Virus record (IMG/VR): IMGVR_UViG_3300009155_000048
Coordinates: 43,135-107,134 of that record
Direction: 5' to 3' (one strand)
Source of the DNA: a virus
Length of the DNA: 64,000 nt
In this document: piece after piece, positions 22,923-51,656 of the stretch
How the letters are laid out: every line of letters begins with the position of its first letter
Position numbering within the stretch: the first letter of the stretch is position 1
Notes under the pieces: model-generated
Told to the model about the DNA's origin: nothing
Seen by the model: only the letters and a program-made list of their open reading frames with translations
Databases searched by the model: none
Translations under genes and position numbers: made by a program

Positions 22923-23519
22923 ATGAAATATTTGAAAAGATTTTTAGAATCTAGATTTGAGTCAGAAGATGATATAACAGATTACCTATTAGAACTAGTT
23001 GATGATGGATTTTTGGAGTTCAAAAAAATAGATATCGAAAATAAAAAATTTGAATTTGTATATTCAATATTGACTGATTTTTCTTCTATTTCTAATTTAA
23101 AAGATTTGAAATCATTTGAAGAAAAAATTTTAACTTTATATAATATATTAGGTAGATGGAATTTAGAATTTCGTATAAAATCTAAAGGGTATCATTCCAG
23201 TGAATTGTCTATTTATTCGGACGTGCCTGAATATATATCAGATTGTCTTAGAGATGTCGAGATGTATCATTTGGATTATGATAAAACCGGAACTTATTTT
23301 GGTAAAGGAAATGATATTTACTTGGGTGGATTTATCAACAAATATCAAGAGGTTTTTCTTTCAATACGAACTGAGAATAAAAAAGATAGTAAAATAAAAA
23401 TTCAGAGTTATATTGATACCAAAAATAATTCAAAAAAATATCAATTAAAATTTGTAAAAAATATACCGACCGGGGAATATATTTATCAAATCATTCCAAA
23501 AATAATTCCATCGGAATGA
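22923..23519 (+). CDS. Candidate capsid-targeted internal protein, 198 residues
   Basis: The N-terminus MKYLKRFLESRFESEDD has the shared MKxLKxF pattern described for this genome. After it the protein is unrelated to the other members: an acidic helix (DITDYLLELVDDGFLEFKKI), mixed strands (FEFVYSILTDFSSIS, NLEFRIKSKGYHSSELSIYS) and a C-terminal strand IYQIIPKIIPSE. It does not show a clear (L/I)xE cleavage site close to the N-terminus. It carries a late promoter, and its stop overlaps the start of the next gene, which has the same N-terminal pattern. No enzymatic family recognised. Confidence 0.6.
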   Translation: MKYLKRFLESRFESEDDITDYLLELVDDGFLEFKKIDIENKKFEFVYSILTDFSSISNLKDLKSFEEKILTLYNILGRWNLEFRIKSKGYHSSELSIYSDVPEYISDCLRDVEMYHLDYDKTGTYFGKGNDIYLGGFINKYQEVFLSIRTENKKDSKIKIQSYIDTKNNSKKYQLKFVKNIPTGEYIYQIIPKIIPSE

Positions 23520-24238
23520 AATATCTTAAATATTTTAAAGAATCACAATCCGAAATAACATTAAAGGATAAGCTAGAATCAATTGTTAATATGTATCAAT
23601 ATCTTTGGTCTAATCATATTGATCCAGACTCACTTGGTAACTTTACTGGTAAATGCTCAGTATTATTTACTGGGTGTATGACTATTAATAGAGGATGGGA
23701 CATTTCAAAGAAAGAAGGAAGACCATATGAGTTTGATGTCGATTGTTTATTAAAGAAACTAGAAACCGATTATAGAAAAGAAGAGAAGCTTAAAAATATC
23801 GAAGAACTCTATAAGTCAAGTATTATACCAAGATTTAAGCATACCAAAGAGGAAATTGAACAATTTTTATCACCAGTATTAAATTTAGAAGTAACTGGAG
23901 ATAAAATTATAAAATCATATGAAATAAATCCATATTTTAATGGTTGGAATAAAAAAGCATGCTTTAGTATAAAGTGTAAATTGAATGAGGAGTTTCTCAC
24001 AATGGATGAGCAAGAAGTTGAAACTAAAAAAGGCAATGACAGAACTGTAAATTTTCCAGGATATTTTGATAGAAAATATTTCAAAGAAATTGAAGATGAA
24101 TTTTATTCTTGTAAAAGACTAATAAAGTCAAAAATTGAAGAACTAGATTTACAAAAAGCTGGATTAGAATTTTCCATGGATGATAATACACACTTGGGTC
24201 TATACTTTAACTTCCACATTAGAATAGAGGAAATTTAA
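23516..24238 (+). CDS. Candidate capsid-targeted internal protein, 240 residues
   Basis: N-terminus MKYLKYFKESQSEITLKDKL shares the MKYLKxF start with the preceding gene, whose stop it overlaps by 4 bases. The rest looks like a globular alpha/beta protein (MYQYLWSNHIDPDSL, KCSVLFTGCMTINRGWDISK, ACFSIKCKLNEEFLTMDE, LGLYFNFHIRIEEI). No catalytic motif. The tandem pair is read from the late promoter at 22907. After the stop comes a GGAGG and the hairpin that precede the clamp loader. Confidence 0.6.
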   Translation: MKYLKYFKESQSEITLKDKLESIVNMYQYLWSNHIDPDSLGNFTGKCSVLFTGCMTINRGWDISKKEGRPYEFDVDCLLKKLETDYRKEEKLKNIEELYKSSIIPRFKHTKEEIEQFLSPVLNLEVTGDKIIKSYEINPYFNGWNKKACFSIKCKLNEEFLTMDEQEVETKKGNDRTVNFPGYFDRKYFKEIEDEFYSCKRLIKSKIEELDLQKAGLEFSMDDNTHLGLYFNFHIRIEEI

Positions 24239-24244
24239 ACTTTT

Positions 24245-24287
24245 GGAGGTATTCAACTTATAATTTATCCGAATTATAAGTTATATG
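24245..24287 (+). promoter_or_regulatory. GGAGG plus 11-bp hairpin before the clamp loader start codon
   Basis: GGAGG at 24245-24249 is one of few Shine-Dalgarno-like sequences near a start in this window. A perfect inverted repeat AACTTATAATT/AATTATAAGTT (24255-24282, loop of six) lies between it and the ATG at 24285. When the hairpin is folded, GGAGG and ATG are effectively seven bases apart, ideal spacing. T4 gene 25 is known to use a hairpin in this way. It could also be an operator for a translational repressor. Confidence 0.55.
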
Positions 24288-25262
24288 AAACAACTATTAC
24301 TATCAGAGAAGTGGCGCCCTAAAACAATTGAGGACGTAATCCTTTTACCAAGAATCCGTAAAATATTTGAGAACGGTCTCAACCAAAATGTTATTTTATA
24401 TGGTCATTTTGGAACCGGCAAAACTACTATTGCTCGCATACTAGTAGGCAAGTATCTCAAGAATACACCACACATAGAATTAAATAGTTCATTCTACACA
24501 TCTATCGACACACTTAGAAATAAGATTGATGACTTTTGTTCAAAAGTTTATATGGGGTTTGATATGAATGTAGATATATCAAATGATACAATCAAATATG
24601 TATTCTTGGATGAATTTGAAAGAACATCCATTCAATATCAAGATGCACTTAAAGCTTATATTGAAGAATTCTCAAAGAAAAATGTTAGATTTATCCTAAC
24701 AACAAACCACATCAACAAAGTTTCACCAGGAATTCGATCTAGATTAATTGAAGTAAACTTTGATTGTCAATCTCCAGAAGAAGAGAAATATCTTAAAACA
24801 GAAATCTATAAAAAGATTAGTACCGTAATTGCTCCACAAGAAGAATTTGAAATTCCAAAAGAAGAGTTGATTAAGATAATAAATAAAAAGTTTCCAGACT
24901 TTAGGTCAATAATGATTGATGTTGATAACTTCAAACAAACTGGATTATCAAATGAATCTGGATGCACAATCAATATTAAGTTAAGAAATGATTTATATGC
25001 AATTCTTTTTGATAAAAGTAAGACATATGATGAGATATATCATTTTTTAATGAATAATTTTGGACCAGAAAAGATTGATGAAATGATTTCTCTTTTTGGT
25101 AGACCATTTATTGAGTGGTCAATTAATGAAAAAAAATCTAATATTGAAAAGTTATTTCAAGTAAACTATATTATCACCGAACACACAAAGTTATTAGAGA
25201 CTAATACCGACCCGATTGTTTTGGGAATGACTGTTATTGGTAAGATTCGTGATATTTTTTAA
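24285..25262 (+). CDS. Sliding clamp loader large subunit (T4 gp44-like AAA+ ATPase)
   Basis: 325 residues (T4 gp44: 319). Opening LLSEKWRPKTIEDVIL is the clamp loader signature; Walker A GHFGTGKT (40-47), Walker B VFLDEFE with Asp109-Glu110, sensor 1 FILTTNH, and the SRC-like arginine-finger motif GIRSRLIEV (around Arg153) are all present. It would form a complex with a small subunit (gp62) and load the sliding clamp (gp45) for the replicative polymerase; neither partner is in the window. The start is fixed by the hairpin arrangement just upstream. Being a replication gene, it is out of place among late genes and lacks a late motif of its own. Confidence 0.93.
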   Translation: MKQLLLSEKWRPKTIEDVILLPRIRKIFENGLNQNVILYGHFGTGKTTIARILVGKYLKNTPHIELNSSFYTSIDTLRNKIDDFCSKVYMGFDMNVDISNDTIKYVFLDEFERTSIQYQDALKAYIEEFSKKNVRFILTTNHINKVSPGIRSRLIEVNFDCQSPEEEKYLKTEIYKKISTVIAPQEEFEIPKEELIKIINKKFPDFRSIMIDVDNFKQTGLSNESGCTINIKLRNDLYAILFDKSKTYDEIYHFLMNNFGPEKIDEMISLFGRPFIEWSINEKKSNIEKLFQVNYIITEHTKLLETNTDPIVLGMTVIGKIRDIF

Positions 25263-25298
25263 CAACTAGCTGAAGTGAAGTAAATGTATATACTAGGA

Positions 25299-25309
25299 TT
25301 TAATATATA
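25299..25309 (+). promoter_or_regulatory. Late-type promoter TTTAATATATA
   Basis: Ends five to six bases before the ATG at 25315. A second GTATATAC lies 15 bases upstream. Confidence 0.5.
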
Positions 25310-25314
25310 AATTC

Positions 25315-25701
25315 ATGGCAGCAGTAGATTTTACCGATTTTTACATTTTATATAAAGACCACCCAAGATATGTTCCAAAAGAACTTATTGAAGATGAAGT
25401 TGTTAATGTTATTATACAGAAATATGAAATGATACTATTCACAAATAAAGGTGAAGTAATGGGTGATCCAGAATTCGGTGCAAATCTATTGGAATTATTA
25501 TATCAAACTAAAGTATCCGAATCATATGTTATTAGTACTATAGATGAGCAAATTGCTATTTATATACCAGAATTAGCAAATACTAATTACACATTAAATG
25601 TTGTCTTTGTTCAAGATCCAGAAAACTACCAGGATATAATGTTTGTAAATCTTAAAATTGCTGACTATAGCGTTTACGCACAAATAGGTAAGTTTAGCTA
25701 A
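25315..25701 (+). CDS. Baseplate wedge protein (T4 gp25-like)
   Basis: 128 residues (T4 gp25: 132). The core IIQKYEMILFTNKGEVMGDP followed by EFGANLLELLYQ matches the gp25/W/lysozyme-like family pattern (I-x-Q-x-I-x-x-I-L-x-T-x-x-GE-x-x-x-x-P-x-x-G). The second half (IDEQIAIYIPEL, YTLNVVFVQ, FVNLKIADYSVYA) supplies the strands of the fold. Members join the sheath to the baseplate in contractile tails. It is isolated from the other tail genes and lies between the clamp loader and a convergent hydrolase gene, which it overlaps by 8 bases. Confidence 0.88.
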   Translation: MAAVDFTDFYILYKDHPRYVPKELIEDEVVNVIIQKYEMILFTNKGEVMGDPEFGANLLELLYQTKVSESYVISTIDEQIAIYIPELANTNYTLNVVFVQDPENYQDIMFVNLKIADYSVYAQIGKFS

Positions 25702-26308
25702 TAGAGCAATGATTGGCTGAGTAGATATATTTCCAATCTCTTTTAATATTAATACCTAAAGCTTCTGCTGTTGTAACAACATCTTCCAAACATTCCGAAT
25801 CAGCACCACCAACAATAGTAACTTCTTTACCCTTTAACTTTTGAAATAAGTTATACAATTTAACAGGGCATTGAAACCACTGATGATTATTCCCAATAAA
25901 TACTATAATAGTACCTTCTTCTGTTGGAAAATATTGACCTTTCTTTAGAGTTTTTTCTTGAGATTTAATCTGTTGATAAACTTCTTTACTTAGAATCTTT
26001 TTATAAAATTCAACATCAACATCATAATTATACCTCTTTTCGATTAAATCAACTTGATTAGGAAATGTATATAAGTCTCCGTTTACTGGTATTTCAGGAT
26101 TATCATCATACAAATAATCTTTATCTGGATTCTTACCATCAACATGGTTATCAAATATTTGATAAACATTAGTAAAGTTATTACAATACTTTTTCAACTC
26201 ATTCAAATACATTTCATTAAAGAACTTCTTAAATGACTTTTGAACATCAACAACCAATAGAGTAGAGTTATTTTTTTCAAAATTTTCAAATAGTTTAAGA
26301 TATTTCAT
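25694..26308 (-). CDS. Cysteine hydrolase (isochorismatase/nicotinamidase-like) with capsid-targeting N-terminus
   Basis: 204 residues. After the N-terminal MKYLKLFENFEKNN comes the cysteine-hydrolase fold: TLLVVDVQKSF (Asp21), a lysine-rich LKKGQYF around 121-127 as possible catalytic lysine, and GGADSECLEDVVTTAEALGI with Cys173 in the position of the family nucleophile. The family includes nicotinamidases, isochorismatases and N-carbamoylsarcosine amidases. The substrate cannot be told; nicotinamide or another NAD-related amide is one option. The N-terminal tail is the one shared by the internal-protein candidates, so the enzyme may be packed in the head. A late promoter ends three bases before the ATG. 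Confidence 0.68.
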   Translation of the reverse strand: MKYLKLFENFEKNNSTLLVVDVQKSFKKFFNEMYLNELKKYCNNFTNVYQIFDNHVDGKNPDKDYLYDDNPEIPVNGDLYTFPNQVDLIEKRYNYDVDVEFYKKILSKEVYQQIKSQEKTLKKGQYFPTEEGTIIVFIGNNHQWFQCPVKLYNLFQKLKGKEVTIVGGADSECLEDVVTTAEALGINIKRDWKYIYSANHCSIS

Positions 26309-26311
26309 AGT

Positions 26312-26322
26312 GTATATATTAA
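26312..26322 (-). promoter_or_regulatory. Late-type promoter TTAATATATAC
   Basis: Exact match ending three bases before the ATG at 26308; leaderless arrangement. Confidence 0.6.
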
Positions 26323-26334
26323 AGTATGTGCATA

Positions 26335-26364
26335 AAAAAACACCGAGTAATCGGTGTTTTTTAT
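26335..26364 (-). terminator. Terminator
   Basis: ACACCGA, loop GTAA, TCGGTGT with T runs both ways; ends the transcript of the gene at 26380-26964 just before the next late promoter. Confidence 0.88.
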
Positions 26365-26379
26365 AAAGTGTTTTATAAA

Positions 26380-26964
26380 TTAAGCTGGTAATTCTTCTTC
26401 ACCAGTTTCTTCCTCTTCTTCTTGAGTTTGTCCTTGACCTTGAGCCTCAGGTTGTGCTTGTGGTTGTGGTTGTGCTTGAACTGGTTGAGCTTCTCCTTGT
26501 GGAGCTACTTCCTCAAAACCTTCTCCACCAGTTTGAGCTTGTGCTTGTGGTTGAGCCTCGGTTTGAACTTGAACCTGTGGTTGAGCTTGTGCTTGTGGAT
26601 GAGCTTCAGGTTGTGCTTGTGGTTCAGTTTGAGCTTGTGGTTGAGCTTGTCCTTGAACAGGAGCTTGAGATTGACCTTGAACACCACCAACTAAAGCAGT
26701 TGCTGGAATTTTATCAGCATCAATACCTGCTTGAGCAACGTGTTTTACAATTTCTTCAGCAATATCCATATCACCAAAGAACTGACGTAAGTTCTTACCA
26801 GTATTATCTTTTACTTTCTTAACATAAGCATTAATTAATGATTGAGGAATATCAATCATACTTTTTACTTTGTAAATATCGTTTACTTGAAAAACAGATT
26901 CTTTAATAATCTCTTCTCTTTTTCTTTCAACTCTATAAGATTCAAATTTTTTGATGTGTTTCAT
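26380..26964 (-). CDS. Candidate internal head protein with Gln/Pro/Ala-rich repeats
   Basis: 194 residues. N-terminus MKHIKKFESYRVERKREEII then KES fits the shared pattern, and IIKE|S is a possible protease site at residue 22. Residues 30-95 are helical (YKVKSMIDIPQSLINAYVKK, DMDIAEEIVKHVAQAGIDAD). From 100 on the protein is a low-complexity QAQPQAQTEPQAQPEAH-type region of about 75 residues ending in EEEEETGEEELPA. The flexible acidic tail and late promoter are compatible with a core or internal protein. On the plus strand this stretch shows long leucine-rich frames, which are shadows. Confidence 0.65.
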   Translation of the reverse strand: MKHIKKFESYRVERKREEIIKESVFQVNDIYKVKSMIDIPQSLINAYVKKVKDNTGKNLRQFFGDMDIAEEIVKHVAQAGIDADKIPATALVGGVQGQSQAPVQGQAQPQAQTEPQAQPEAHPQAQAQPQVQVQTEAQPQAQAQTGGEGFEEVAPQGEAQPVQAQPQPQAQPEAQGQGQTQEEEEETGEEELPA

Positions 26965-26995
26965 CTTAAATCATTAATTTTTTAATTTCTTATTA

Positions 26996-27006
26996 GTATA
27001 TATTAT
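26996..27006 (-). promoter_or_regulatory. Late-type promoter ATAATATATAC
   Basis: Minus-strand match 31 bases before the ATG at 26964; preceded by the AAGTGAAAAAAATGATTTTTT block. Confidence 0.6.
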
Positions 27007-27009
27007 ATC

Positions 27010-27041
27010 TAAAAAATCATTTTTTTCACTTTTAGTGAAAA
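27010..27041 (-). terminator. Hairpin terminator overlapping the end of the spanin-like gene
   Basis: TTTTCACT, loop AAA, AGTGAAAA on the minus strand, followed by AAATGATTTTTT; the stop codon of the gene ending at 27032 is in the loop. Confidence 0.6.
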
Positions 27042-27571: not shown

Positions 27572-27574
27572 TTT

Positions 27575-27988: not shown

Positions 27989-28010
27989 ATTAGTAAATAT
28001 ATTTTTTATA

Positions 28011-28032
28011 ACGGAATAAATCCGTATCTTTG
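28011..28032 (+). promoter_or_regulatory. Inverted repeat overlapping a Bacteroidetes-type promoter
   Basis: ACGGA-ATAAA-TCCGT (28011-28025) abuts TATCTTTG (28025-28032). A protein bound to the repeat would block the promoter, so this is a candidate operator between the divergent genes at 27988 and 28079. Confidence 0.5.
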
Positions 28033-28078
28033 ATATATATAAAAAATTAAATCTTTCTAAAATTAAATAAAATTGTAT

Positions 28079-28585: not shown

Positions 28586-28592
28586 TATATAC
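28582..28592 (+). promoter_or_regulatory. Late-type promoter TTAATATATAC overlapping the HAD stop codon
   Basis: Exact match ending five bases before the ClpS ATG at 28598. Confidence 0.6.
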
Positions 28593-28597
28593 ACATT

Positions 28598-28879
28598 ATG
28601 GCAACAATTACAAAAGAACAAGTAAGTGTACAAATAGAAGATATATTAGGACAACCTTATATACTAATGTTACACAATGATGATCACAACACATTTGATT
28701 GGGTAATCGAATGTCTTATAAAAGTCTGTAAACATGACTTTGAACAGGCCTCACAATGTGCCCACTTAGTACATTTCACCGGTAAATGTGATGTTAAAAG
28801 AGGAGACCAAGAAACTATACAGAAAATGTATAACAAGCTTAAATCAGCCGGTCTTTCAGCAACTATTGAGGAAGCTTAA
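28598..28879 (+). CDS. clpS: ClpS, adaptor of the Clp protease N-degron pathway
   Basis: 93 residues, the normal ClpS size. The N-degron binding pocket is intact: MLHNDDHNTFDWVIECL supplies the Asn-Asp-Asp and Thr, and VHFTGKC supplies the pocket histidine. The helix DFEQASQCAHLVHF and the closing strand SAGLSATIEEA complete the fold. The wording LIKVCKHDxxQAxQCAxLVH is the Bacteroidetes form of ClpS, so the gene probably came from the host group. In cells ClpS delivers proteins with N-terminal Leu, Phe, Tyr or Trp to ClpAP or ClpCP. A phage copy could redirect host proteolysis. A late promoter gives a nearly leaderless transcript, and a strong terminator follows. Confidence 0.92.
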   Translation: MATITKEQVSVQIEDILGQPYILMLHNDDHNTFDWVIECLIKVCKHDFEQASQCAHLVHFTGKCDVKRGDQETIQKMYNKLKSAGLSATIEEA

Positions 28880-28887
28880 TAATTAAA

Positions 28888-28924: not shown

Positions 28925-28927
28925 TTC

Positions 28928-28935: not shown

Positions 28936-28939
28936 TTAT

Positions 28940-29368: not shown

Positions 29369-29369
29369 A

Positions 29370-29419: not shown

Positions 29420-29791
29420 TTATCCTAATGGATTAGCAGTTCTGTGAGATGCCCCACTAGCCAACGCTTGGAAGCCAGTAACACCTGTTTTGTAAATTAC
29501 ATAAATACCACCACTTCTACTGGATTGTACTCTTAATCCACCCTTAAAGTTATCTTCTTCTGCTTTTTCAATTAAGCTTTTCTTGGAAGCTTCCCAGTTT
29601 TTAGATTGTGGGTATTCATCTGGTTCAGCCATCAATTCTTTTTCGGCTTCTTCTAAAGCAACCATAAATTTATCTTTTGCTTCATCTTTTGCTGCACTAG
29701 ATTCATGTCCAGTGAAGAACTTCTTAACACCACCTAAGATTTCTTCTTCTTCATTGATTGAGAAGCTTTCAAATGTTTTTAAATGTTTCAT
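29420..29791 (-). CDS. Candidate capsid-targeted internal protein, 123 residues
   Basis: The clearest capsid-targeting case: MKHLKTFESFSINE followed by EEEILGG. SINE|E, with Glu14, repeats exactly the SINE|N site inferred for the capsid protein, so the prohead protease should remove the first 14 residues. The mature part is a small domain: helices (AKDKFMVALEEAEKELMAEP, NWEASKKSLIEKAEED) followed by strands (LRVQSSRSGGIYVIYKTGV). Not recognised. Late promoter at 29817-29830; the gene follows the other internal-protein candidate and the terminase on the same strand. Confidence 0.7.
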   Translation of the reverse strand: MKHLKTFESFSINEEEEILGGVKKFFTGHESSAAKDEAKDKFMVALEEAEKELMAEPDEYPQSKNWEASKKSLIEKAEEDNFKGGLRVQSSRSGGIYVIYKTGVTGFQALASGASHRTANPLG

Positions 29792-29838: not shown

Positions 29839-30285
29839 CTACTTTTTTCTCACTTTATATTCTGGATTATTAGCAATTCCAGATTTAGTCTTACTACCCC
29901 ACCATCTACAGAAATATCTAATAGCAATATCAACGCCATTAAACTTCATTTGACCAGTAGCATATGGTTGTTCTTCTTGTCCTTCTATCTTTTCAGGTTG
30001 TTTATACTTATTTTGGTCTTTAGACACCTCACTATCATAATAGTAAAAAGTTAAAATCCATTTGAATTTTTCTTCCTCTGGATTTAACTTAATTTTACCA
30101 ACTAACTTTTTATGTTCATCAAGAATATCAATTTCTTGTTCAGAGTCATACATCTTAGTAGATAATTTGTAAATATTTAAATACTTTTGATAGATAGTAC
30201 TAAACTTTTTAGTAGGAGTAAAAGCTTTCTTTATCTTAGAAAAGAATCCCTCATTAAATTGCTCAAAGTTTTTAATATTTTTCAT
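29839..30285 (-). CDS. Candidate capsid-targeted internal protein, 148 residues
   Basis: Start set at ATG 30285 because a late promoter ends three bases upstream of it; a longer frame from 30327 would run through that promoter. N-terminus MKNIKNFEQFNEGFFSKIKK has the shared pattern, with FNE as a possible cut. The rest is basic at first (KAFTPTKKFSTIYQKY), then beta-rich (KLVGKIKLNPEEEKFKWILT, MKFNGVDIAIRYFCRWWGSK). Not recognised. It lies directly downstream of the terminase gene, whose 3' end contains its promoter. Confidence 0.65.
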   Translation of the reverse strand: MKNIKNFEQFNEGFFSKIKKAFTPTKKFSTIYQKYLNIYKLSTKMYDSEQEIDILDEHKKLVGKIKLNPEEEKFKWILTFYYYDSEVSKDQNKYKQPEKIEGQEEQPYATGQMKFNGVDIAIRYFCRWWGSKTKSGIANNPEYKVRKK

Positions 30286-30288
30286 ATA

Positions 30289-30299
30289 GTATATATTAA
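30289..30299 (-). promoter_or_regulatory. Late-type promoter TTAATATATAC inside the end of the terminase gene
   Basis: Exact match ending three bases before the ATG at 30285; it covers the terminase stop codon. Confidence 0.6.
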
Positions 30300-32443
30300 A
30301 TTCCAAACCAATTTTTACCGCCACCATTCTGATTTTTGTATTGACTCATAAACTTTCTTTGTCTATTAACATTTATAATAGAAGAATAATCAATACCATC
30401 TTTGTGATCTCCTCTTTTAAGTATTTCTTTCCAAGAATTTAATGTACCAGAATCAACAATTTTTGATGCACAATCTTCTATCATTTCTCTAAAATCATAT
30501 TTAGAAAAAACACTAGCAGCATTAACCAAGGTCATCACCGTATCATCATGTCCAATATCAGCAGCATATCTAATATTACCAGATGATGTTATGTGTTTAA
30601 CAAATGTTGTTATCTCTCTAATATTATTTTCATTTGTTATGATGAAATTCTTTTTATCCATTGCATCTTGATAATCTTTTACCAACATATTCTTATTTTC
30701 ACCAACCTTTAATCCAACTCTTTCTTCTGTAGAATCAGCTCTATGTTTATATCTAAAGAAAACACTAGATCCATAATTATTATTTCCATCAAATACATAA
30801 GGTAAGTGAGCCAAGAATTCATTACCATAGTTATTTAACTCTAAAACAACCTTAAAGTTCTCATAGTTAAAGTACTCAAATAATAATGTGTAGAATAGTT
30901 CAGCTAATTGCTTAACTGAAACAAAATTAGACCTGTAAATAGCAATTTGCTCTAAACAAAAGAAATCAGATAGTTGTGTATAATTACCTTGTTGTATTTC
31001 AACAGTTTCTTGTGATTTTGGTGATATTTTAAATATATTAATAATTGAATAGTCTTGACCTAATCCTTCCGATATATCCACAGATATAACACCTTTAGCT
31101 GAGTTTCTCATAATTGGACTAAAAACATCATCATCATCAACCCAGTGTAAGTCATCATAAGAAAATTTAAGACGTTTTGTTAATTCTGGTATTTCCTCAT
31201 ATACATAGTTCTTTTTATTATTAAGTAATTGTTCAATTAAATTCTCACTAAGTAAAGATCTGGTAGCGTTAACAAATCTCAATCCATACTCTTGATTGAA
31301 TGCGTCTTCACCACCAATATCTTTGATAGCTTCTTCTTTCCAAGTTGTTACTTCTGACACCGCGTAAATTGGAAGTTCCATATCATCTTCTTTAACTATT
31401 TGAAACTCTTTAACTATTTTATCAGTACAAGCATCATTATTGTAGATATAAATAACATCTTTAATTAAATCTGGTATGAACTTCATCTCAACCTTAGTGT
31501 GTTCACCAAATTGTCTCTGAACCTGTTCAAAAATATATTCTTTTGTCAACCCATGTTCATACATTTTATGGTTATTTAATCTAAAGAATGTAACAAAACG
31601 ACCAGGAACCTGATGCCAATAAACTCTCATTGGCTTATAGTTATTCTTCAATGGATCTCCATCCGGTCTTTCAGCATCACTTAGTAACCTATAAAATAGA
31701 TTCATACCATTTGGGGTTGAAGTAATTACAATCTTAGAGTTCTCAATCGCAGAAACAGTTGGAAAGGCAGCAGTATAGTAAGGTTCGATGATATTACTCG
31801 GAATATGAGCAAACTCATCAAGATATAAGAAGTCAATAGTAAAACCAATCGCAGGAGTCTTACTTCGAGCTGATGATTTAATTCTACAACCATTATCAAA
31901 AATCATTGATTGTTGGTTTAGATTCTTAATACCAGCCTTTAGAAAGAAAGGTAATTGTGCATATATGTTTCTTATCTTATCAATAATCTCAATTGTAGTA
32001 CCTCTAATATTAGCAACAATCATAATATTCTTATCATTATTAAATGTAATGAAGTGTAACATTGTGATAGCAGCATTGATAGTTTTACCAATCTGACGAG
32101 ATCCACATAATATTGAAAATCTATTTTTAGTGTATAGGTCTAAAATATCCCTCTGATAATCTCTTAATTTGATATTCTGAACAGAACCATCTTCTGTTTT
32201 AATTCTACAGTATTTTTCGGCAAAGTATTGAATATCTAATTTACACTTGATGTACTCTTGGATTTCATCCTCGGTCATCATAAATGTTATACCAGCTCTT
32301 CGGTAACCAATTTCATTCTTAAACCAAGGATTCTGAAAACGCTTTACAACAACACCATCATTGATTTTCTCAGTTATATCATCAATTAGTTTACTAGTAA
32401 AAACAAATTTCTTTTCCTCGGTTGGTTTTTTAGCAACTGCCAT
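30296..32443 (-). CDS. Terminase large subunit (T4 gp17-like)
   Basis: 715 residues (T4 gp17: 610). ATPase motifs: the adenine-binding segment NIKLRDYQRDIL, Walker A GSRQIGKT (114-121), Walker B IDFLYLDEFAHI with Asp209-Glu210, and coupling motif ITSTPNG. The C-terminal nuclease has RuvC-like acidic residues in GVISVDISEGLGQDYS and in DIGHDDTVMTL. It cuts concatemeric DNA and drives packaging through the portal. The upstream region (32444-32490) has TTATATATATT in both orientations, serving this gene and the divergent gene at 32491. Confidence 0.95.
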   Translation of the reverse strand: MAVAKKPTEEKKFVFTSKLIDDITEKINDGVVVKRFQNPWFKNEIGYRRAGITFMMTEDEIQEYIKCKLDIQYFAEKYCRIKTEDGSVQNIKLRDYQRDILDLYTKNRFSILCGSRQIGKTINAAITMLHFITFNNDKNIMIVANIRGTTIEIIDKIRNIYAQLPFFLKAGIKNLNQQSMIFDNGCRIKSSARSKTPAIGFTIDFLYLDEFAHIPSNIIEPYYTAAFPTVSAIENSKIVITSTPNGMNLFYRLLSDAERPDGDPLKNNYKPMRVYWHQVPGRFVTFFRLNNHKMYEHGLTKEYIFEQVQRQFGEHTKVEMKFIPDLIKDVIYIYNNDACTDKIVKEFQIVKEDDMELPIYAVSEVTTWKEEAIKDIGGEDAFNQEYGLRFVNATRSLLSENLIEQLLNNKKNYVYEEIPELTKRLKFSYDDLHWVDDDDVFSPIMRNSAKGVISVDISEGLGQDYSIINIFKISPKSQETVEIQQGNYTQLSDFFCLEQIAIYRSNFVSVKQLAELFYTLLFEYFNYENFKVVLELNNYGNEFLAHLPYVFDGNNNYGSSVFFRYKHRADSTEERVGLKVGENKNMLVKDYQDAMDKKNFIITNENNIREITTFVKHITSSGNIRYAADIGHDDTVMTLVNAASVFSKYDFREMIEDCASKIVDSGTLNSWKEILKRGDHKDGIDYSSIINVNRQRKFMSQYKNQNGGGKNWFGI

Positions 32444-34700: not shown

Positions 34701-34994
34701 TTATATCTCAATCAAATTTATTCCACTGACAAACTTTCCTTTGAATGTTCCTCCCTCAAAGATTCCATTCTGAAAAGTTCCGTAGAACTCACCACTTTTA
34801 AAAATACCATAGTGCCAGTTACCAGAGTAGTAACTACCACCATACCAAATTAAAGTGTTGTTTTTGATTTCGATTTGTGCATCCTCTACTTCCGAATCAA
34901 TTAACCAATGAAAGTTTTCTTTCTCAAGGATGTTTAAGATTTTATTTTGATTTACTATCTTATTTTCATTATAAATCAGCTCATTAAAACGCAT
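34701..34994 (-). CDS. Small protein with MORN-like repeats
   Basis: 97 residues. The C-terminal half has short repeats of the G-x-(W/F)-x-x-G type: YYSGNWHYGIFKSGEFYGT, FQNGIFEGGTFKG, KFVSGINL, as in MORN/beta-hairpin repeat proteins that form an extended sheet. The N-terminus MRFNELIYNENKIVNQ distantly resembles the capsid-targeting type. Function unknown; MORN-like repeats often mediate binding to membranes or proteins. No clear promoter. Confidence 0.55.
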   Translation of the reverse strand: MRFNELIYNENKIVNQNKILNILEKENFHWLIDSEVEDAQIEIKNNTLIWYGGSYYSGNWHYGIFKSGEFYGTFQNGIFEGGTFKGKFVSGINLIEI

Positions 34995-35738: not shown

Positions 35739-38705
35739 ATGAAATATTTAAAATATAGAGAAGATTTTCTACATAGAGAGATTAAACTTGATGAATCAAA
35801 AATTCAAGAACAAATTAAAAGTTCTGAAATGATTTCAGAAGCTTTTGAGAATGATATCACTTGGGGTGGATCTTTAATTGGAAGACTATTTAACTCTATA
35901 TTAAGAAAAGGTAAAGTAATGATACAAACTGCTAGGATTGGATCATTAGTTAAATCTCTTAAAGATGAACTAGATTCTTTATCTGGCGAAGTACAGATCG
36001 CATCCGATGAGAAAATAAAAAATAAAGTTTACTTACTTTCTATTAGATTTTTAGTAACTGAGATATATAATATTGTTGTTAGTAATAAAACTGTTGCCGA
36101 AAAGAAAGGAGAATTAGTAGGAGATGGATCTGAGGATGCTGGTCTTATACAAACAACTATTAAACAGGTTGAGGCTATACCAGATGAGTCACTTCCAAAC
36201 AAAAAAGAACTTATTGAAAAGCTTAAAAGATTTAGAGAAGCATTACTTAAATTAGAAGTAAAAGCCGAACCATCAAAAGAAGAAGAGGAAGATGATGATA
36301 GCGAAACAAATTTCTATAATCAAACACTCAATCTATTGAAATCAATTGTAGCATTAAATGATGTTATTCTTAATAAAAAGATTAAGAATGCAGAACAAAC
36401 AAACAAATCAGTAGAAGTTGGTAAAGAATATACAAATAAGAATGGTAAGGTTTGTATGGTTGTTAGTTTAGATCACAAAGTAACCAGACCAAATAAAGAT
36501 GCTGGTGGAGATGGTGTGTTTTTTACAAAAGATGACAAAAAGGGAGAAACATTAGCTCCAGGTTTAGCATTAGTTGTATATAGAGATGAAAAAACAAAAA
36601 AATATTTACCTAATTCACCAACACAAGCAATAAATAAGACGGAGCTTAAGCCATATACTGGAAATGATACACTTAAAGATAAAGAGGGAAAACCTCTTCA
36701 ATCACCATTAGATACCAAAACCGGCACTCCAAAAATTGGAGCAGGATCTGCACAAGGTCAAAAAGAAGGAGAAAAAGTAGAAAAAACAAATGATTCATAC
36801 TATTATGAGAATGAGTCACTTCCTATCTTTGAAGATACAAAACTTGAAGATAATGAACTACATGCTAAAGCTGCTTGGAATAAAGTATTAAACACATGGA
36901 ATAAAACTGGAATTTCAAAAATGGTTCCAAGAATACAAGAACTATTGAAAAAATCTGAGTCTGGAAGTAAATTAGAGAAAGGATGGATAATGGACTTAGG
37001 TAAGCAAATTATGTTAAATAAATCAACAGTAGGTGCAAATCCTATGAAATTTGATGATTTAATTAAAGAAGCAGAAGCTATTCCTACATCATATAATGAT
37101 ATACCTAAAGCAATATCTTTAGTTAGTAGAGTTATACTTTCATTTAAGGAAGATATGGGATTATTAGGAGCATTAGGTGATGCTAACCCACATATTAAAT
37201 TATTTGTCAACTCATTTGATGAGATGAGTAAGATATATCCTAATCTAAAAGCAAAGAAAAAAGAAGAACCTAAGAAAGAAGAGGAAAAGACACCAGAAGC
37301 ACAAAATGATTCACGTCTATTTAACTACTCTAAATTCTTATCAATAAATGAAGCAGATGATATTGTACCTGAATTAGACTCTGAAACAGAAAAGTCCGAA
37401 AATGATGAGGTTAAAACTGCTTGGTCTAATGAGTTCAAAGAAGGTGAGGAGAAAGAGTGGAAAATAGAAGAGAAAGAAGCCAAAGAACTACAAAAAGAAA
37501 CAGATGAGTTAGAGAATAAAGAAACTACATTTAAGGGTGATGACTATTATGATCACATCATAGCAATTATTGAAATTTTCGGCAAGGCTTACAATCTATA
37601 TGCAACTACTGTTATTCCATCTGGTAGACCAAATGGTAGAATTTCTCAAAAAACATTTAGAGAATATGAATTTATTGGAGATGGTAAGAATCCGGGATGG
37701 AAAGAAGGAGAAGGACCAGAAGCTGGTCCATGGGCAGCAAAGCAAACATATCAAAAGTGGCAAGATGGTGTTATGGGCATTCTTAAAGATCCTAAATATA
37801 GAAAAATATTAGCAAATGTTAAATTTGTATCAGAGGCCGAAAGTTCAACAGGAACACCATCCAAAGAAGGTTCAGGAAGATCTTTATTTACCTTCATCAA
37901 TGACCTAACAACCGGAAATGGTGAATTTAGTAAGATTAAAAGAGAAATGATGAATAAGTATTTCACAACAAAAGAAATGAAAACAAAGGGAGACAAGGAA
38001 ACTCAAGGATTTGGGGGTAACCCAAGTCCTACTATTTCTGGAGATGATAAAGGTGAGACAAATAAATATTATTTAACACTTGGTAAAGAGATTAGTGGTA
38101 TATATGTATCACCAAGAATGTCTGATTATAAAAAATCAGATAAAGAAAATAGCTCATTTTTGAATAATTTTACACTAGCTAAGTATAAAACAGATGATGC
38201 AAAAGAAGGAACTATTTTAGTTTATGTTAATAATTATTTTACAGTTGATGATAGTCCACACATTTTAGTAAAGTTTCAATTTATCAAGGAAGGAAGACAA
38301 TCATTAATAAGTTCTTATTTAAAAAATAGTATTACAAATGACAAAATGGAATTACCCGAAGATATAAGAGAAGATTTAACAAAATCTATTTATGTAGGTG
38401 TTATCAAATTATCAGATGGTCATTTACTAACAGGAAGTACTCCAAATATAACATATATAGACGCAGTAGAACTAAACTCACCAACGGAACAAGGATTTAA
38501 AGAACTAAATATTAAATTGACACAGATTAAATATCTAACAAAACTTGTAGATACAAAAGATGGAAATCAAAAAAGAATAGTAGTTAAGCCAAAAGACAAT
38601 AAACCGGACGAGTTTACAAATAAAGATGTTAAAGACACACTTGGTAAAATTAAAAATAGTGACTCTTTGAAAAAGGGCCTTAAAATAGAAGGAAAAATAA
38701 AATGA
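35739..38705 (+). CDS. Large candidate internal head protein, 988 residues, with two capsid-targeting-like signals
   Basis: N-terminus MKYLKYREDFLHREIKLDES fits the shared pattern, with KLDE|S a possible cut at residue 19. A second such signal is internal, around residue 525: LFNYSKFLSINE|ADD, the same SINE sequence as in the capsid protein and the protein at 29420. A third possible site, SLPIFE|D, is near residue 365. Between the sites are separate regions: helical 20-200, beta-rich 225-310 (a small domain with KEYTNKNGKVCMVVSLDHK), helical 370-510, a charged linker 540-600, then a large globular C-terminal part. No enzyme motif is recognised. It is read from a late promoter and overlaps the next gene by 4 bases. 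Confidence 0.6.
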   Translation: MKYLKYREDFLHREIKLDESKIQEQIKSSEMISEAFENDITWGGSLIGRLFNSILRKGKVMIQTARIGSLVKSLKDELDSLSGEVQIASDEKIKNKVYLLSIRFLVTEIYNIVVSNKTVAEKKGELVGDGSEDAGLIQTTIKQVEAIPDESLPNKKELIEKLKRFREALLKLEVKAEPSKEEEEDDDSETNFYNQTLNLLKSIVALNDVILNKKIKNAEQTNKSVEVGKEYTNKNGKVCMVVSLDHKVTRPNKDAGGDGVFFTKDDKKGETLAPGLALVVYRDEKTKKYLPNSPTQAINKTELKPYTGNDTLKDKEGKPLQSPLDTKTGTPKIGAGSAQGQKEGEKVEKTNDSYYYENESLPIFEDTKLEDNELHAKAAWNKVLNTWNKTGISKMVPRIQELLKKSESGSKLEKGWIMDLGKQIMLNKSTVGANPMKFDDLIKEAEAIPTSYNDIPKAISLVSRVILSFKEDMGLLGALGDANPHIKLFVNSFDEMSKIYPNLKAKKKEEPKKEEEKTPEAQNDSRLFNYSKFLSINEADDIVPELDSETEKSENDEVKTAWSNEFKEGEEKEWKIEEKEAKELQKETDELENKETTFKGDDYYDHIIAIIEIFGKAYNLYATTVIPSGRPNGRISQKTFREYEFIGDGKNPGWKEGEGPEAGPWAAKQTYQKWQDGVMGILKDPKYRKILANVKFVSEAESSTGTPSKEGSGRSLFTFINDLTTGNGEFSKIKREMMNKYFTTKEMKTKGDKETQGFGGNPSPTISGDDKGETNKYYLTLGKEISGIYVSPRMSDYKKSDKENSSFLNNFTLAKYKTDDAKEGTILVYVNNYFTVDDSPHILVKFQFIKEGRQSLISSYLKNSITNDKMELPEDIREDLTKSIYVGVIKLSDGHLLTGSTPNITYIDAVELNSPTEQGFKELNIKLTQIKYLTKLVDTKDGNQKRIVVKPKDNKPDEFTNKDVKDTLGKIKNSDSLKKGLKIEGKIK

Positions 38706-39277
38706 TTAAAAAATACTCAGAATTTATTTTAGAAAATTATTTTCCGGATAATACAGATTCTCCAGAGATTGCATCAGATATGAATGGATTTAATGATATT
38801 AGTGACCAGATTAAAGAATTTGATACTAAGAAAGTTACTATCAACAATATCTATATGACATACACCGATGAAAAAGATTTAATTAATAAATTGTCTTCTC
38901 AGAAATTTATTGATAATACTAGTGATAAAAAATCTATTAAATTTCATAATTCTATTTTAGGTATGTGGGCACAGTCTTGTGAGAAAAGAAGAGATTTAAA
39001 AGAAATAGATGACCAAATTAAAAAATGGGAAGAAGATATTAAAAATGAAGAGGATAATATTAAAAATAATCCATCTTCAGAAGAATCAGTAAGAGCTAAC
39101 ATCAATTTAATAGAGGACAAGATAAAACAAAAAACACAAGATGTTTCAAAAAAACAACTAGAAATTGGTGACTTAGAAAAATTAGCAAAAGATAAATTAA
39201 AATCATTAAAAGATGAACTTAGTTTATCCAAGAAAAGATTAGATATGTATAGGGCTAATAAATTTGCCAAAAAGTGA
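38702..39277 (+). CDS. Candidate capsid-targeted coiled-coil protein, 191 residues
   Basis: Start overlaps the stop of the 988-residue gene (ATGA). N-terminus MIKKYSEFILENYFPDN has the Y/F-x-E-F-I-x-E shape of T4 internal-protein signals, and ILE|N would be the cut at residue 11. The middle is short and mixed (TKKVTINNIYMTYTDEKDLI). The second half is a pure coiled coil (EIDDQIKKWEEDIKNEEDNI, QKTQDVSKKQLEIGDLEKLA). It may be a core protein. It ends AKK-stop immediately before the sheath promoter. Confidence 0.62.
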   Translation: MIKKYSEFILENYFPDNTDSPEIASDMNGFNDISDQIKEFDTKKVTINNIYMTYTDEKDLINKLSSQKFIDNTSDKKSIKFHNSILGMWAQSCEKRRDLKEIDDQIKKWEEDIKNEEDNIKNNPSSEESVRANINLIEDKIKQKTQDVSKKQLEIGDLEKLAKDKLKSLKDELSLSKKRLDMYRANKFAKK

Positions 39278-48200: not shown

Positions 48201-49336
48201 CTCCAGGCACATATTCATTGAGATTGGTAGATGGTAATCAAGGATCAAATAAAGTATTAACATCTGATTCATTCGGTAACGCAAGTTGGGCAACAGCTAG
48301 TGGAAATACATATTATGCAGGAAACGGATTAACACAAAGTGTTGGTAACACATTTTCTATACTACTACAAACCGGATCAGGTCTTACAAGTAGTTCAAAT
48401 GGGATATCATTAAATAGCCAAGTATCATCTAAGTCTGCTGATTTTATAGTTGATAATAATGAAAATGGATACTTATATTATGTAACAACCGGAACATCAC
48501 TAATTACTTGTACACCACCGAGTGTGAGCAATGGGTTTGAGTTCACCATCATGAAAGTTGATAATACAAATGGTGTTATTCAAGTAACCGGTGTTTATGA
48601 GTATTCTGGATCTACCAATCTATCATATTTAACAAGACAGAATGAGACCATAACTTATAAATATAATGGTTCTTCTTGGGTAGCTTATGTAGTTGATGAT
48701 GGTGTTATACCACCATCAACCGTATTGGCTAATATGGGAGCCACATATGGACACGCCGAAGAGTTTCCGGTTTTAGATATAAATGATACTATACAAGGTG
48801 CGATTAATTACAATCAAGGTGGATGGAGTTATGATTGGTTGAGTGGTACTATTTTCTCAGCTTATTCTCCATTAACATTATCCAATGCAACAACAACATC
48901 TATGTTCAATACGGCTTCAAATAGTTTTATTGGACTAACATCAGCACCACTTACAATTAGTGCTTATAGTTTAACATTAGGTAAGTCAATTAGAATTTTA
49001 TTAACAGGTACCGCTTCTGGTAGTGGAGCATTATCTATTTACCCAAAAATAGGTTCACAAACATTCTCATCAACATCTATAACCACAGGAACTATATCAG
49101 ATGCTCCGTGGAGAATAGAATATGAGTTTAAGGTACTTACTGTTGGATCATCTGGTAAATTACATGGTAGCGGATTTTGGATATCATCACAAGCGTCATC
49201 GCCATATCAGAATATAATGGGTACATCTAGTTACTACACAACAGTAGATACCACAATAGACAATAGAATAGACTTTTTACTAACATCATCTAGTTCTTAT
49301 ACAGTTATACATTCTACAATAGAAAGGTTAGCTTAA
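45218..49336 (+). CDS. Tail fibre protein with trimeric-adhesin-like repeats
   Basis: 1372 residues, rich in Gly, Ser, Thr and Asn. Repeats of the type NTAVGSQALGKLTTGSDNVG and NIALGYQALLNNSNGTDNIS (about residues 340-420 and 725-900) are those of trimeric autotransporter/YadA-type left-handed beta rolls, common in phage fibres. A module FRLVDGTQGAGKALISDANG (about 615) recurs as LRLVDGNQGSNKVLTSDSFG (about 1000), each followed by NASW. The C-terminal 250 residues (from about 1120) are beta-rich and end in IHSTIERLA; this is the likely receptor-binding or trimer tip. There is no visible intramolecular chaperone with a cleavage Ser-Asp site. Late promoter. Confidence 0.85.
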   Translation: MTKILNSLKVTGTGSSSQALGVTGGYVSINDKLRIGDWSTPTATVNINSKGTTSSTNAFKITTGFTTNNFYPSLNYSDDGVLTLVGAGLGYGATNSGRPIGSADLVIGNNYYGSIELAGYGIFGRDQGTSEGLSFYIRKVAGGAATYSRGFRFITATDRQFNLQPEADDTFSINYPTYNNGYIRLSSYNDSGKYFRISTDKFTSTQQSDRFGIQGFSDWASVFFRNISSLQIDNNAIVTRNIGTTSNSFPNTFIIGSSQSSINIGTTYGIPTSWNQGSIIIAPSNAINMTASHFPVSGLTHTNNSNIMMVAQVSVIPTGNYNVMIGGGSKITTGSQNVGIGNYLYTTNPALGELTTGSRNTAVGSQALGKLTTGSDNVGLGDRALRDSLVSSSNNVGVGVQAGQSVQSSNNIFIGTNAGRAYNGTGDSVLYLSTHDFTSAARVEAAAAHYSSTYATWSGTPPTWATLNPSYGNVVIFGNESSGSRESSTINSTGTFRSLFFGKGMWHLSTNLNTYVISTSMPTLMTWTASGSITQNNDAVGSSLELVAGVGRGGGTAGDLYFSTGQLTASGTSSLQDKVVRMTIKGGNGFIGVGTQSPSTLLHIYSTQSNAFRLVDGTQGAGKALISDANGNASWGTASGGSGVSGGSASYMALFTSDTSLTPSNIYQGASGSILIGYTSSSSTYTTDTNTLRVNGNVYFDNSTSTSKFFLNGTNLFDNVNRNIALGASALGINNGSVGTNNVAIGEQSLKSNTGDRNIALGYQALLNNSNGTDNISIGEQSLKSNTGAGGSYNVAIGTSALNKNTSGYRNFALGYYSLYSNLTGDNNISIGHNSMFFGMSQSNVAIGANSLYGLKYGSYNVSIGKSAAADLGGATSSLSTPNWQDNYNTFIGTFVAPGLVRGNYNTIISSKLGASDFIGFTQGNYNTYVGYGITGTFSSNQNNTVIGSRVTLVGGITNSIILADGSGNQRIFVNSLGYVGIGTQSPTALLTLNSPGTYSLRLVDGNQGSNKVLTSDSFGNASWATASGNTYYAGNGLTQSVGNTFSILLQTGSGLTSSSNGISLNSQVSSKSADFIVDNNENGYLYYVTTGTSLITCTPPSVSNGFEFTIMKVDNTNGVIQVTGVYEYSGSTNLSYLTRQNETITYKYNGSSWVAYVVDDGVIPPSTVLANMGATYGHAEEFPVLDINDTIQGAINYNQGGWSYDWLSGTIFSAYSPLTLSNATTTSMFNTASNSFIGLTSAPLTISAYSLTLGKSIRILLTGTASGSGALSIYPKIGSQTFSSTSITTGTISDAPWRIEYEFKVLTVGSSGKLHGSGFWISSQASSPYQNIMGTSSYYTTVDTTIDNRIDFLLTSSSSYTVIHSTIERLA

Positions 49337-49351
49337 AACATATCACATTTG

Positions 49352-49362
49352 ATAATATATAA
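49352..49362 (+). promoter_or_regulatory. Late-type promoter ATAATATATAA
   Basis: Plus-strand variant 28 bases before the ATG at 49391. Confidence 0.45.
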
Positions 49363-49390
49363 CTATAGATAAAAAAGAATTTATGATTTA

Positions 49391-50947
49391 ATGCCAATTT
49401 ATACAGTATCCACGAATCCAAAAAATATACCAGGACTAAAATTCTGGTTAGATGCTGCTGACACATCAACCCTATCTTTAACCAATACAACTAATGTTGG
49501 TACTTTTTCTGCTGTTTCTAACGGTGTAACTTATAGTGGTAACAACTCAGGACCAGGAGTAAATTGGAAAAATGGAACACCAATAGCCTCTGTTGGATAC
49601 TTAACATATAGTGCAGTATTATCAACTACAACCATAGTATCAAGCATTAGAGATAAAGCAACTGGAGTAACACTATCTGCTGATATATCAGGAGTTATAC
49701 CAACAACTGGGGTTGCTTATAGTGGAACACCAACGGTAAATGGACCAAGATATCTCTATAACAATATAAATGATAAAAATACTATATTATTTAATTATGG
49801 AACAAATAGTGGTGGAGTATATGGACTAAAGGCGAGTACTATGTCCAACTTTATTAGTGCTACACACTCATACTATGCGGTTTTTTCAAATGTATCCAGA
49901 CAAACTAATCAATATGGACAGTATTTAATATCAATATTTAAACCATCTAGATTATTAACCAATGGTGGTTATCCAAATATCGCAACAGCTCTATATAGTA
50001 CTAATACTCAATTGGTCGAGACTGCACAAACTACAACATCAGCACCATATTTATCTGTAGTTGCTCCTATAAATCCCACAACATCTTGGAAAAAAGTTAA
50101 TATTATTTCAGCAAGATTTTTAGGAACATCATCAATGGGTAGATGGTCATTTAACAGTAAAGATAGAAACTATACAATCTATGGAAAGACAGCTTCTTCC
50201 AATCCAATACACATTGCTGGAGATAAACCACCAATTGGTGTAACAATATCAAATGCTAAAATGGTATTAGGTGACTATTGGTTATCACCATATACCGTGG
50301 CTTCCACCACACCAATTCCACCAAATGTATATTTTTGTGAATTTTTATATTACGATAGACAATTAACCGACCAGGAACATTATAAAGTTGTACAATACTT
50401 AGAAAATAAATGGATAAAGCCAGAAGAGGAAACAAAACCAATACAAGTATGTCAATTTTATAAAAACTTCACATATGGAGCTGGTAGTTCACAGATACTA
50501 ACTGGTACAACTTTAGGGATATCAAATACATATGAGGCAAATTTATACCACACAGCATCATATGAAGGTAGGTTCGCACTTGTTCAGATTGCTACAACTG
50601 GGGAAATACTTCCAACAGGAAGTAGTTTATATGGACAAAGATTATATTGTAGAGTAGATATACTACCAACAACACAAAGTGATGGTACACCACCAAAGGG
50701 AACTCAGACGGGAATGGGATTTTGGCTTGGACAAGGAGGAGGATACTTTACACCAAATACAAGACCACCTGATTTTTATATACCACCCGGGGCATCTGGA
50801 TCATATGAAGGTGTGTGTACCTGGGGATCAACAGCAGTTAGTAATAGAATTTATATTCAAAATTCTAATGAATCAGTTGGTAAAACATGGAGCGGATGGG
50901 TTAAAATTAAAATAGGAACAGTGGGATGTGGATTAAATCCCTCTTGA
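49391..50947 (+). CDS. Virion protein with LamG/concanavalin-like lectin domain
   Basis: 518 residues. IPGLKFWLDAADTSTLSL opens, and YYDRQLTDQEHYKVVQYLEN with KW closes, a concanavalin-A-like domain as found in many phage and Bacteroidetes surface proteins; the stretch between (about 10-340) is beta-rich with aromatic patches. A second beta domain follows (about 360-518; QVCQFYKNFTYGAGSSQILT, YEGVCTWGSTAVSNRIYI, TWSGWVKIKIGTVGCG). It probably binds sugar on the host surface. It lies directly after the fibre gene and its 3' end overlaps the convergent gene by 15 bases. Confidence 0.75.
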   Translation: MPIYTVSTNPKNIPGLKFWLDAADTSTLSLTNTTNVGTFSAVSNGVTYSGNNSGPGVNWKNGTPIASVGYLTYSAVLSTTTIVSSIRDKATGVTLSADISGVIPTTGVAYSGTPTVNGPRYLYNNINDKNTILFNYGTNSGGVYGLKASTMSNFISATHSYYAVFSNVSRQTNQYGQYLISIFKPSRLLTNGGYPNIATALYSTNTQLVETAQTTTSAPYLSVVAPINPTTSWKKVNIISARFLGTSSMGRWSFNSKDRNYTIYGKTASSNPIHIAGDKPPIGVTISNAKMVLGDYWLSPYTVASTTPIPPNVYFCEFLYYDRQLTDQEHYKVVQYLENKWIKPEEETKPIQVCQFYKNFTYGAGSSQILTGTTLGISNTYEANLYHTASYEGRFALVQIATTGEILPTGSSLYGQRLYCRVDILPTTQSDGTPPKGTQTGMGFWLGQGGGYFTPNTRPPDFYIPPGASGSYEGVCTWGSTAVSNRIYIQNSNESVGKTWSGWVKIKIGTVGCGLNPS

Positions 50948-51202
50948 TAAAATAATATCAAGATTCTTCTTGGTGAATCCATCCAATGGTCCACCACCAT
51001 CTTTTAAATAACTTTGGTATAAATCTTGGTAATCATCATAAGTGTAAAACTCACCATCTTCACCCATTAAAATTTGAGTATCGGATTGCGATAATGAAAC
51101 AGGTAATTTTTGCTCAGGGTAATTTGGTCCCATAGTGTTTTGACCAATCAACTCCCAACCACTTATAGATTCATTAAATTCATTAAAGTTTTTAATTCTC
51201 AT
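50933..51202 (-). CDS. Candidate capsid-targeted small protein, 89 residues
   Basis: Start chosen at MRIKNFNEFNESISGW (ATG 51202), since the longer frame extends into the upstream gene; the N-terminus fits the shared signal, with FNE|S a possible cut at residue 10. The mature part of about 79 residues (LIGQNTMGPNYPEQKLPVS, DTQILMGEDGEFYTYDDYQD) ends in GPLDGFTKKNLDIILSRGI. Not recognised. Its start overlaps the end of the preceding minus-strand gene by 11 bases, which has a similar N-terminus and the late promoter. Confidence 0.6.
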   Translation of the reverse strand: MRIKNFNEFNESISGWELIGQNTMGPNYPEQKLPVSLSQSDTQILMGEDGEFYTYDDYQDLYQSYLKDGGGPLDGFTKKNLDIILSRGI

Positions 51203-51656
51203 CCTCAACTGGAATTTTTTCAAAAAACTCATCTTGACTACTCAATGAGTATGTATCATGATTAAAATCATACTTGATATTATATAGAAATCTATCGTGT
51301 AATTTTATTTCACCATGTTTTAGGAATAATAAACAGGTATCATCTTCAAAATCATTCTCAATAGAAACTATTTCATCATTTATTTGACCATCTTTATCAT
51401 AAAGATCACAGATAACTTTTCTACCATTATCCAATAATTCACTTACTTTATCAAAAGCTGTGTTCTTAGATAGATGAGACATATCGGTCAAATCTTTATC
51501 CATTATTTGATCATATTTACTCAAAAACTCTTCCTCTCTAGAGGTAAGTTTTTGATGAGATGATATCTTATCAAGGATTCTATTCAACTCATCATCCTTT
51601 ACTGATTCTCTCAATGTTAGGTATTTACTCCATTTTTCAAATTTCATGATTCTCAT
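51192..51656 (-). CDS. Candidate capsid-targeted protein, 154 residues
   Basis: N-terminus MRIMKFEKWSKYLTLRESVK fits the shared pattern; TLRE|S (residue 17) fits the (L/I)xE rule. It continues with DDELNRILDKISSHQKLTSREEE then FLSKY, the same helical hairpin found in the proteins at 28940 and 35145. The middle has a strand-rich section (KVICDLYDKDGQINDEIVSI, TCLLFLKHGEIKLHDRF). Late promoter 51667-51677, back to back with that of the tape measure gene. Function unknown. Confidence 0.62.
   Translation of the reverse strand: MRIMKFEKWSKYLTLRESVKDDELNRILDKISSHQKLTSREEEFLSKYDQIMDKDLTDMSHLSKNTAFDKVSELLDNGRKVICDLYDKDGQINDEIVSIENDFEDDTCLLFLKHGEIKLHDRFLYNIKYDFNHDTYSLSSQDEFFEKIPVEDEN

Follow-up and report, generated by a model that had tools for sequence, protein, structure and literature searches.

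For the bacteriophage T4 internal protein IPIII, the first ten residues suffice for packaging; mutants tie residues 4 and 7 to targeting and residues 8 and 10 to processing, and the T4 prohead protease cuts at L/I-X-E (PMC9026906). The T4 proteins Ip1-3 block GmrSD restriction enzymes and have only their leader in common (PMC12373910). Here we describe a comparable N-terminal sequence (the tag) on otherwise unrelated proteins encoded in a 64,000-base stretch of viral DNA (the window), which comprises bases 43,135-107,134 of IMG/VR virus record IMGVR_UViG_3300009155_000048, a 107,134-base fragment. A preliminary description of the window had proposed T4-like capsid targeting, and the proposal is strongly supported by the sequence of the head genes, the blind recovery of T4 IPI-III, repeats in the scaffold and a shared promoter-like element. 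Our verdict is that the tag is a variant of T4 capsid targeting in greatly expanded form. A T4-type capsid-targeting sequence, with enclosure of the tagged proteins in the head, trimming and probable entry into the cell, is very probably the best explanation of the data as a whole.

The nearest named relatives, identified via the capsid protein, are the uncultured phages LR756502, LR745206 and LR756504 (642, 635 and 636 kb), followed by LR756501 (735 kb). The largest phage genomes have been assigned to the Mahaphage clade, with Bacteroidetes predicted as hosts (PMC7162821), and the relatives with LR accessions are presumably Mahaphage genomes of that study. Judged by its genes, the source of the window is a Mahaphage-type huge phage that carries T4-like head genes.

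Frequency of the tag and its upstream element

A strict N-terminal motif was compared at gene starts and at internal ATGs (internal methionines). In this record it occurs in 11 of 112 genes and at 0 of 522 internal ATGs; the figures are 69 of 1002 genes versus 3 of 3046 internal ATGs for LR756502, and 33 of 957 versus 0 of 2544 for LR756504. Positions that the search pattern left unconstrained are still informative (Y/H at position 3, K at position 5).

A position weight matrix (PWM) was trained on 257 pattern-chosen N-termini from five relatives and afterwards applied to all sets. Proteins scoring at least 10 are called tagged, and expectations come from shuffled N-termini. Coverage of the 465-kb record (G001) stopped 4.6 kb short of its end, and LR756501 and LR756500 were each covered over 400 kb. 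By this measure 17 of 111 genes of the present record are tagged (0.4 expected), 11 being encoded in the part of the record that precedes the window, so the family is larger than the "at least ten" proteins first suggested. The training genomes yield 145 of 989 genes for LR756502, 74 of 943 for LR756504, 59 of 534 for the 465-kb record, 56 of 559 for LR756501 (400 kb; alternative genetic codes tried on this genome made almost no change) and 38 of 548 for the remaining fifth relative. Part of the LR756502 count comes from the amplification of a single family (L097-L129); its 42 paralogues have an I.DIL.DL.DDGF core, and 35 are tagged.

T4 and the loci left out of training provide the independent tests of the matrix. 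Outside training, 82 of 1194 genes at 79 loci of relatives are tagged, against 5.6 expected. Run blind on 150 kb of T4 (246 open reading frames, ORFs), the matrix ranked gp61.1 first, IPIII second, IPII third and IPI fifth. Its strongest part consists of positions +0 ([FY], 3.1 bits) and +3 (F/Y, 3.4 bits); residues 4 and 7 of IPIII are Tyr and Phe, likewise three apart. Forms intermediate between the longer tag of this record and MKTYQEFIAEA of T4 are found in LR756500, for example MKYIKEYEEFILEA. A looser, T4-like pattern matched an internal start within an SbcD-like gene (PWM 2.7), and for this reason counts are based on scores rather than patterns.

The T4 protein gp61.1 (L237:18966-19130, minus strand) has 54 residues, is annotated as hypothetical, begins MKTFKEFIKED and outscores both IPII and IPIII. 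It is possibly an unrecognized T4 internal protein, judging by this N-terminus; a literature search on gp61.1 as a virion protein returned nothing useful.

The bodies behind the tag are as diverse as had been claimed: the 16 pattern-defined tagged proteins of the record fall into 16 families. Overall, 210 tagged proteins represent 171 body families, and only the N-terminus is conserved in alignments.

A directional element, TTTAATATATA, occurs 37 times in the window and whole record. Its form TAATATATA lies at most 60 bases upstream of 29 genes, versus 6 for the backward spelling, and within 60 bases of 9 of the 17 tagged starts of the record. Five of six genomes show an excess of it upstream of tagged genes (odds ratios 3.6-8.5). 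The element also precedes the portal gene and several tail-region genes, and on these grounds we read it as a probable late promoter. Behind a copy of the same element lies a gene for a small, putatively ClpS adaptor-like protein (28598-28879, plus strand).

Scaffold repeats, candidate cleavage sites and modularity

The record holds a T4-like head gene set. The portal protein (14154..15860, minus strand; phrog_213, E 9.4e-59) is T4-like, has the promoter-like element upstream and backs the assignment of phage type; the terminase large subunit lies at 30296..32443 (minus strand; phrog_5989, E 2e-43). A major capsid protein precursor of the Gp23 family (9211..10962, minus strand; Pfam PF07068, E 1.8e-27) and a prohead protease fused to the scaffold (11048..13159, minus strand; phrog_207 head maturation protease, E 4.2e-31) complete the set. 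Thus the phage itself encodes a Gp23-type capsid protein, a gp21-type protease and a scaffold, the cutting of which is predicted. We also noted a fragment of a ResIII-type helicase that carries a Hint/intein domain and adjoins two more ORFs (L007:10362-11198, minus strand) and, in the phage record, a TROVE-domain protein (L006:9173-10624, minus strand).

The protease-scaffold fusion contains about 12 tandem 14-residue repeats (NIAYSEYIAENLDK) of the YSEY[IL]AE type. When the whole proteomes of six genomes were scanned for internal copies of the PWM core, this fusion ranked first in four, where its copy number exceeded that of any other protein by a wide margin: 9 of the 26 best matches in this record, 9 in LR756502, 7 in the 465-kb record and 6 in LR756501. 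The tag motif also resembles the cut region of the capsid protein, where cleavage is predicted after E44 (EYAEFHSINE|NAY); EYAE[FY]H.INE is found in the capsid protein of nearly all close relatives examined. As had been noticed early on, SINE is common to the capsid protein (S41-E44) and the tagged protein at 29420-29791 (residues 11-14).

Cleavage of the tags at (L/I)xE, as first proposed, is supported in part. Sites of this type are enriched after the tag in LR756502 (0.58 versus 0.19) and LR756504 (0.44 versus 0.22), and a site is clear in the GNAT-like family. The predicted tag cleavage at [LI]xE is therefore well supported by sequence in these two relatives and weakly in the present record.

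Comparison of orthologues indicates that the tag is modular, with enzymes retaining it while the linker changes. The clearest example in the window is the protein at 25694..26308 (minus strand; tag MKYLKLFENF, PWM 24.6). Its 21 homologues largely keep the aromatic pair and have variable linkers, with a 13-residue insertion in one. In the AlphaFold2 (AF2) model, residues 1-12 are unordered (predicted local distance difference test, pLDDT, <50) and the fold begins at residue 16. The best structural matches are Protein Data Bank (PDB) nicotinamidases/isochorismatases (probability 0.99, E 0.007, template modelling (TM) score 0.4-0.5), and D21, K91 and C173 are invariant in the family. Based on this model, the protein is probably an isochorismatase/nicotinamidase-like hydrolase.

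A second case is the DnaJ-like zinc-tail family, in which 59 of 68 distinct homologues have the tag, mostly followed by [LI]xES, and the remaining members start directly at the domain. GluRS of LR756504 has a 40-residue tagged N-terminal extension, and its Pfam domain begins at residue 41; GluRS of LR756501 has a shorter added stretch with LLMKES. Both added stretches contain an aromatic pair and an [LIM]xES site.

The DnaJ-like tail family is widespread and mostly tagged; it combines a weakly GNAT-like domain with a DnaJ/BSD2-like cysteine-rich tail (L263:2501-4084, plus strand; here L008:3606-5186, plus strand). Its assignment as an Alt-type ADP-ribosyltransferase was unsupported, the nearest folds being weak GNAT matches. 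Scans with single HAD-like and GNAT-like proteins recovered one relative each, and an alignment query recovered 77 loci.

Tagged proteins and their possible roles

The preliminary description had assigned the motif to ten reading frames in the window. All ten are present where it had placed them, and the PWM finds six of the N-termini strong, two borderline and two weak. Besides the hydrolase-like protein, the strong set includes four proteins on the minus strand. The protein at 29420..29791 (tag MKHLKTFESFSINE, PWM 23.3) has a homologue in L070 with N-terminus MRHIKTFESYSVNE. That at 26380..26964 (MKHIKKFESY, PWM 20.9) has a conserved N-terminal part and a P/Q-rich tail, and tagged homologues in two relatives. 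For 29839..30285 (MKNIKNFEQFNEG, PWM 16.8) the start at 30285 is favored over the ORF start at 30327, the promoter-like TTTAATATATA lying 4 bases upstream. The protein at 50933..51202 (MRIKNFNEFNES, PWM 14.2) has a homologue beginning MAIKSFKSFNEE. The sixth strong case, 38702..39277 on the plus strand (PWM 17.5), has the T4-like form MIKKYSEFILEN; its homologue in the 465-kb relative begins MLLKYSEFLREN.

The protein at 22923..23519 (plus strand; MKYLKRFLESRFES) is probably tagged (PWM 9.7, p 0.004, borderline) and has the promoter-like element 5 bases upstream; that at 51192..51656 (minus strand; MRIMKFEKW) is possibly tagged (PWM 7.6, p 0.012, borderline). The two weak cases have p values of about 0.02-0.03 before correction. 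One, a possible tagged protein of 988 residues (35739..38705, plus strand; MKYLKYREDFLHREIKLDES, PWM 6.5), contains KFLSINE internally and has homologues beginning MKYLQRRDDFLQ and MRYLKQREEFIR; for the other candidate (23516..24238, plus strand; MKYLKYFKESQSE, PWM 5.7) a search for homologues found none. Two further proteins credited with weaker versions of the motif were dropped: the one starting at 34994 scores 5.3 and has orthologues that lack the aromatic pair, and the one starting at 20983 scores below 1, its N-terminus being conserved as part of the protein.

The motif is not equally common in cytosolic enzymes: the DnaB-type helicase, DNA polymerase, clamp loader, DNA methylase and glutamine synthetase of this record are all untagged, and in GluRS the tag sits on the added extension. 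Tagged 2H phosphodiesterases of LR756502 and LR756504 score above the Pfam cut-off for the anti-CBASS protein Acb1. Other tagged proteins in relatives include T4 RNA ligase 1, GluRS, HD/tRNA-nucleotidyltransferase-like, Nudix and SET-domain proteins, PPK2, lysozyme and methyltransferases. The candidate anti-defense enzymes are located in the relatives, none in this window, and PADLOC matches among tagged proteins are few and mostly weak (best E 3.5e-12). An anti-defense action is plausible in view of the Acb1-like and similar proteins that carry the tag and of the GmrSD inhibition by T4 Ip1-3. In the literature found, phiKZ Tad1 is the only jumbo-phage anti-defense protein described.

Proposed mechanism, alternatives and comparison with known systems

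We propose that during prohead assembly the first 10-15 residues of a tagged protein, which would form a short helix-like segment with aromatics three apart, join the scaffold core, the tandem repeats of which bear the same motif. Tagged proteins would thereby end up inside the head. Next, the gp21-like prohead protease would chop the scaffold, trim the capsid protein after SINE-44 and remove many tags after [L/I]xE, leaving the cargo inside; at infection, the cargo would probably enter the cell with the DNA. Packaging, scaffold binding, cutting, injection and function of the tagged proteins are all predictions from sequence.

Several observations weigh against this interpretation. The search pattern originated with this record, and the sequences for training the PWM were chosen by pattern, making the record only partly independent as a test. 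The T4 protein Alt, which is packaged, fell outside the top 14 in the blind run, and 0 of 314 genes are tagged in the Tenacibaculum phage PTm1. The LR756504 scaffold has three internal motif copies and does not rank first in its genome, and that of LR756500 is outside the top three. Enrichment of [LI]xE after the tag is slight or absent in this record (0.38 versus 0.27) and in the 465-kb relative (0.26 versus 0.23).

Among the alternatives, the one that survives best, though we consider it unlikely, is that the tagged and packaged proteins serve as structural components in the core of a very large head and are then mostly degraded or kept there, rather than being injected effectors. In T4, cleavage reduces the core proteins gp22, gp67 and gp68 to fragments (PMC9026906), and an acidic tagged family encoded close to the capsid gene occurs widely; a scaffold role, however, would not call for complete enzymes, and many of the tagged proteins in relatives are of this kind. 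There is appreciably less to be said for an N-terminus that directs proteins elsewhere, to the membrane, a replication compartment or a phage-made chaperone, with convergent likeness to T4. Shortness and modularity are general traits of targeting tags, and the localization of the tagged proteins is a prediction, but the prohead scaffold repeats the same motif, the capsid cut region resembles it, and the T4 internal proteins were retrieved blind. A nucleotide-level feature lacking protein function, for instance a signal for the start of translation or a scar of recombination between genes, is extremely improbable: tagged genes do cluster, and 35 of the LR756502 paralogues are tagged, but synonymous codon use across the motif broadly matches that of the remaining genome, so that the signal resides in the protein, distant orthologues keep the motif despite altered spacing, and the tag is spread over its many body families.

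Under the capsid-targeting interpretation, the data suggest that a large set of protein tools travels with the DNA of these viruses and is probably injected with it. We lean slightly toward a broader proposal, that in Mahaphage-type phages roughly 7-15% of genes form an injected protein kit, that the tag copies the phage's own scaffold repeat unit, 10-15 added codons thus being enough to turn any gene product into cargo, and that the kit holds anti-defense and RNA-repair enzymes (Acb1-like phosphodiesterase, T4 RNA ligase 1, GluRS, HD/tRNA-nucleotidyltransferase-like and Nudix proteins). Hundreds of genes in the largest phage genomes have no known function. If the tag is indeed a capsid address, its sequence alone would pick out those whose products are carried in the virion and probably work during the first minutes of infection, before phage protein synthesis. 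It would also provide a ranked list of candidate counter-defense proteins in uncultured phages, a concrete model in which T4-type tags are recognized because they resemble the scaffold repeat, and predictions that can be tested in T4 itself (gp61.1). We found no report of such tags in huge phages in a literature search that left out subscription papers and preprints.

PTm1 resembles the phages described here in that its protease and scaffold are annotated as one protein upstream of the gene for a related capsid, but it has neither YSEYIAE repeats nor an excess of tagged genes. The inner-body/ejection proteins of phiKZ and SPN3US are likewise a big protein load in a giant head and are trimmed after Glu by a gp21-related protease (PMC9026906). 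phiKZ cuts at S/A-X-E, whereas the phages here have a T4-like Gp23 capsid and candidate [LI]xE sites; the predicted capsid and scaffold sites are [IL]-x-E, not of the S/A-X-E type of the phiKZ inner body. The closest parallel is with T4 IPI, IPII and IPIII (MKTYQEFIAE|A), which share an N-terminal tag of about 10-15 residues with an aromatic pair three apart, often a candidate [LI]xE site next, unrelated bodies, and a Gp23 capsid and gp21-like protease in the same phage. The systems differ in that the tag here has a longer form, MK[YH][LI]Kx[FY]Ex[FY], sometimes with no clear cut site, and in that the scaffold is fused to the protease and built of tandem motif copies. They differ also in scale: T4 has a handful of tagged genes, and the huge-phage genomes have from tens to about 145 each.

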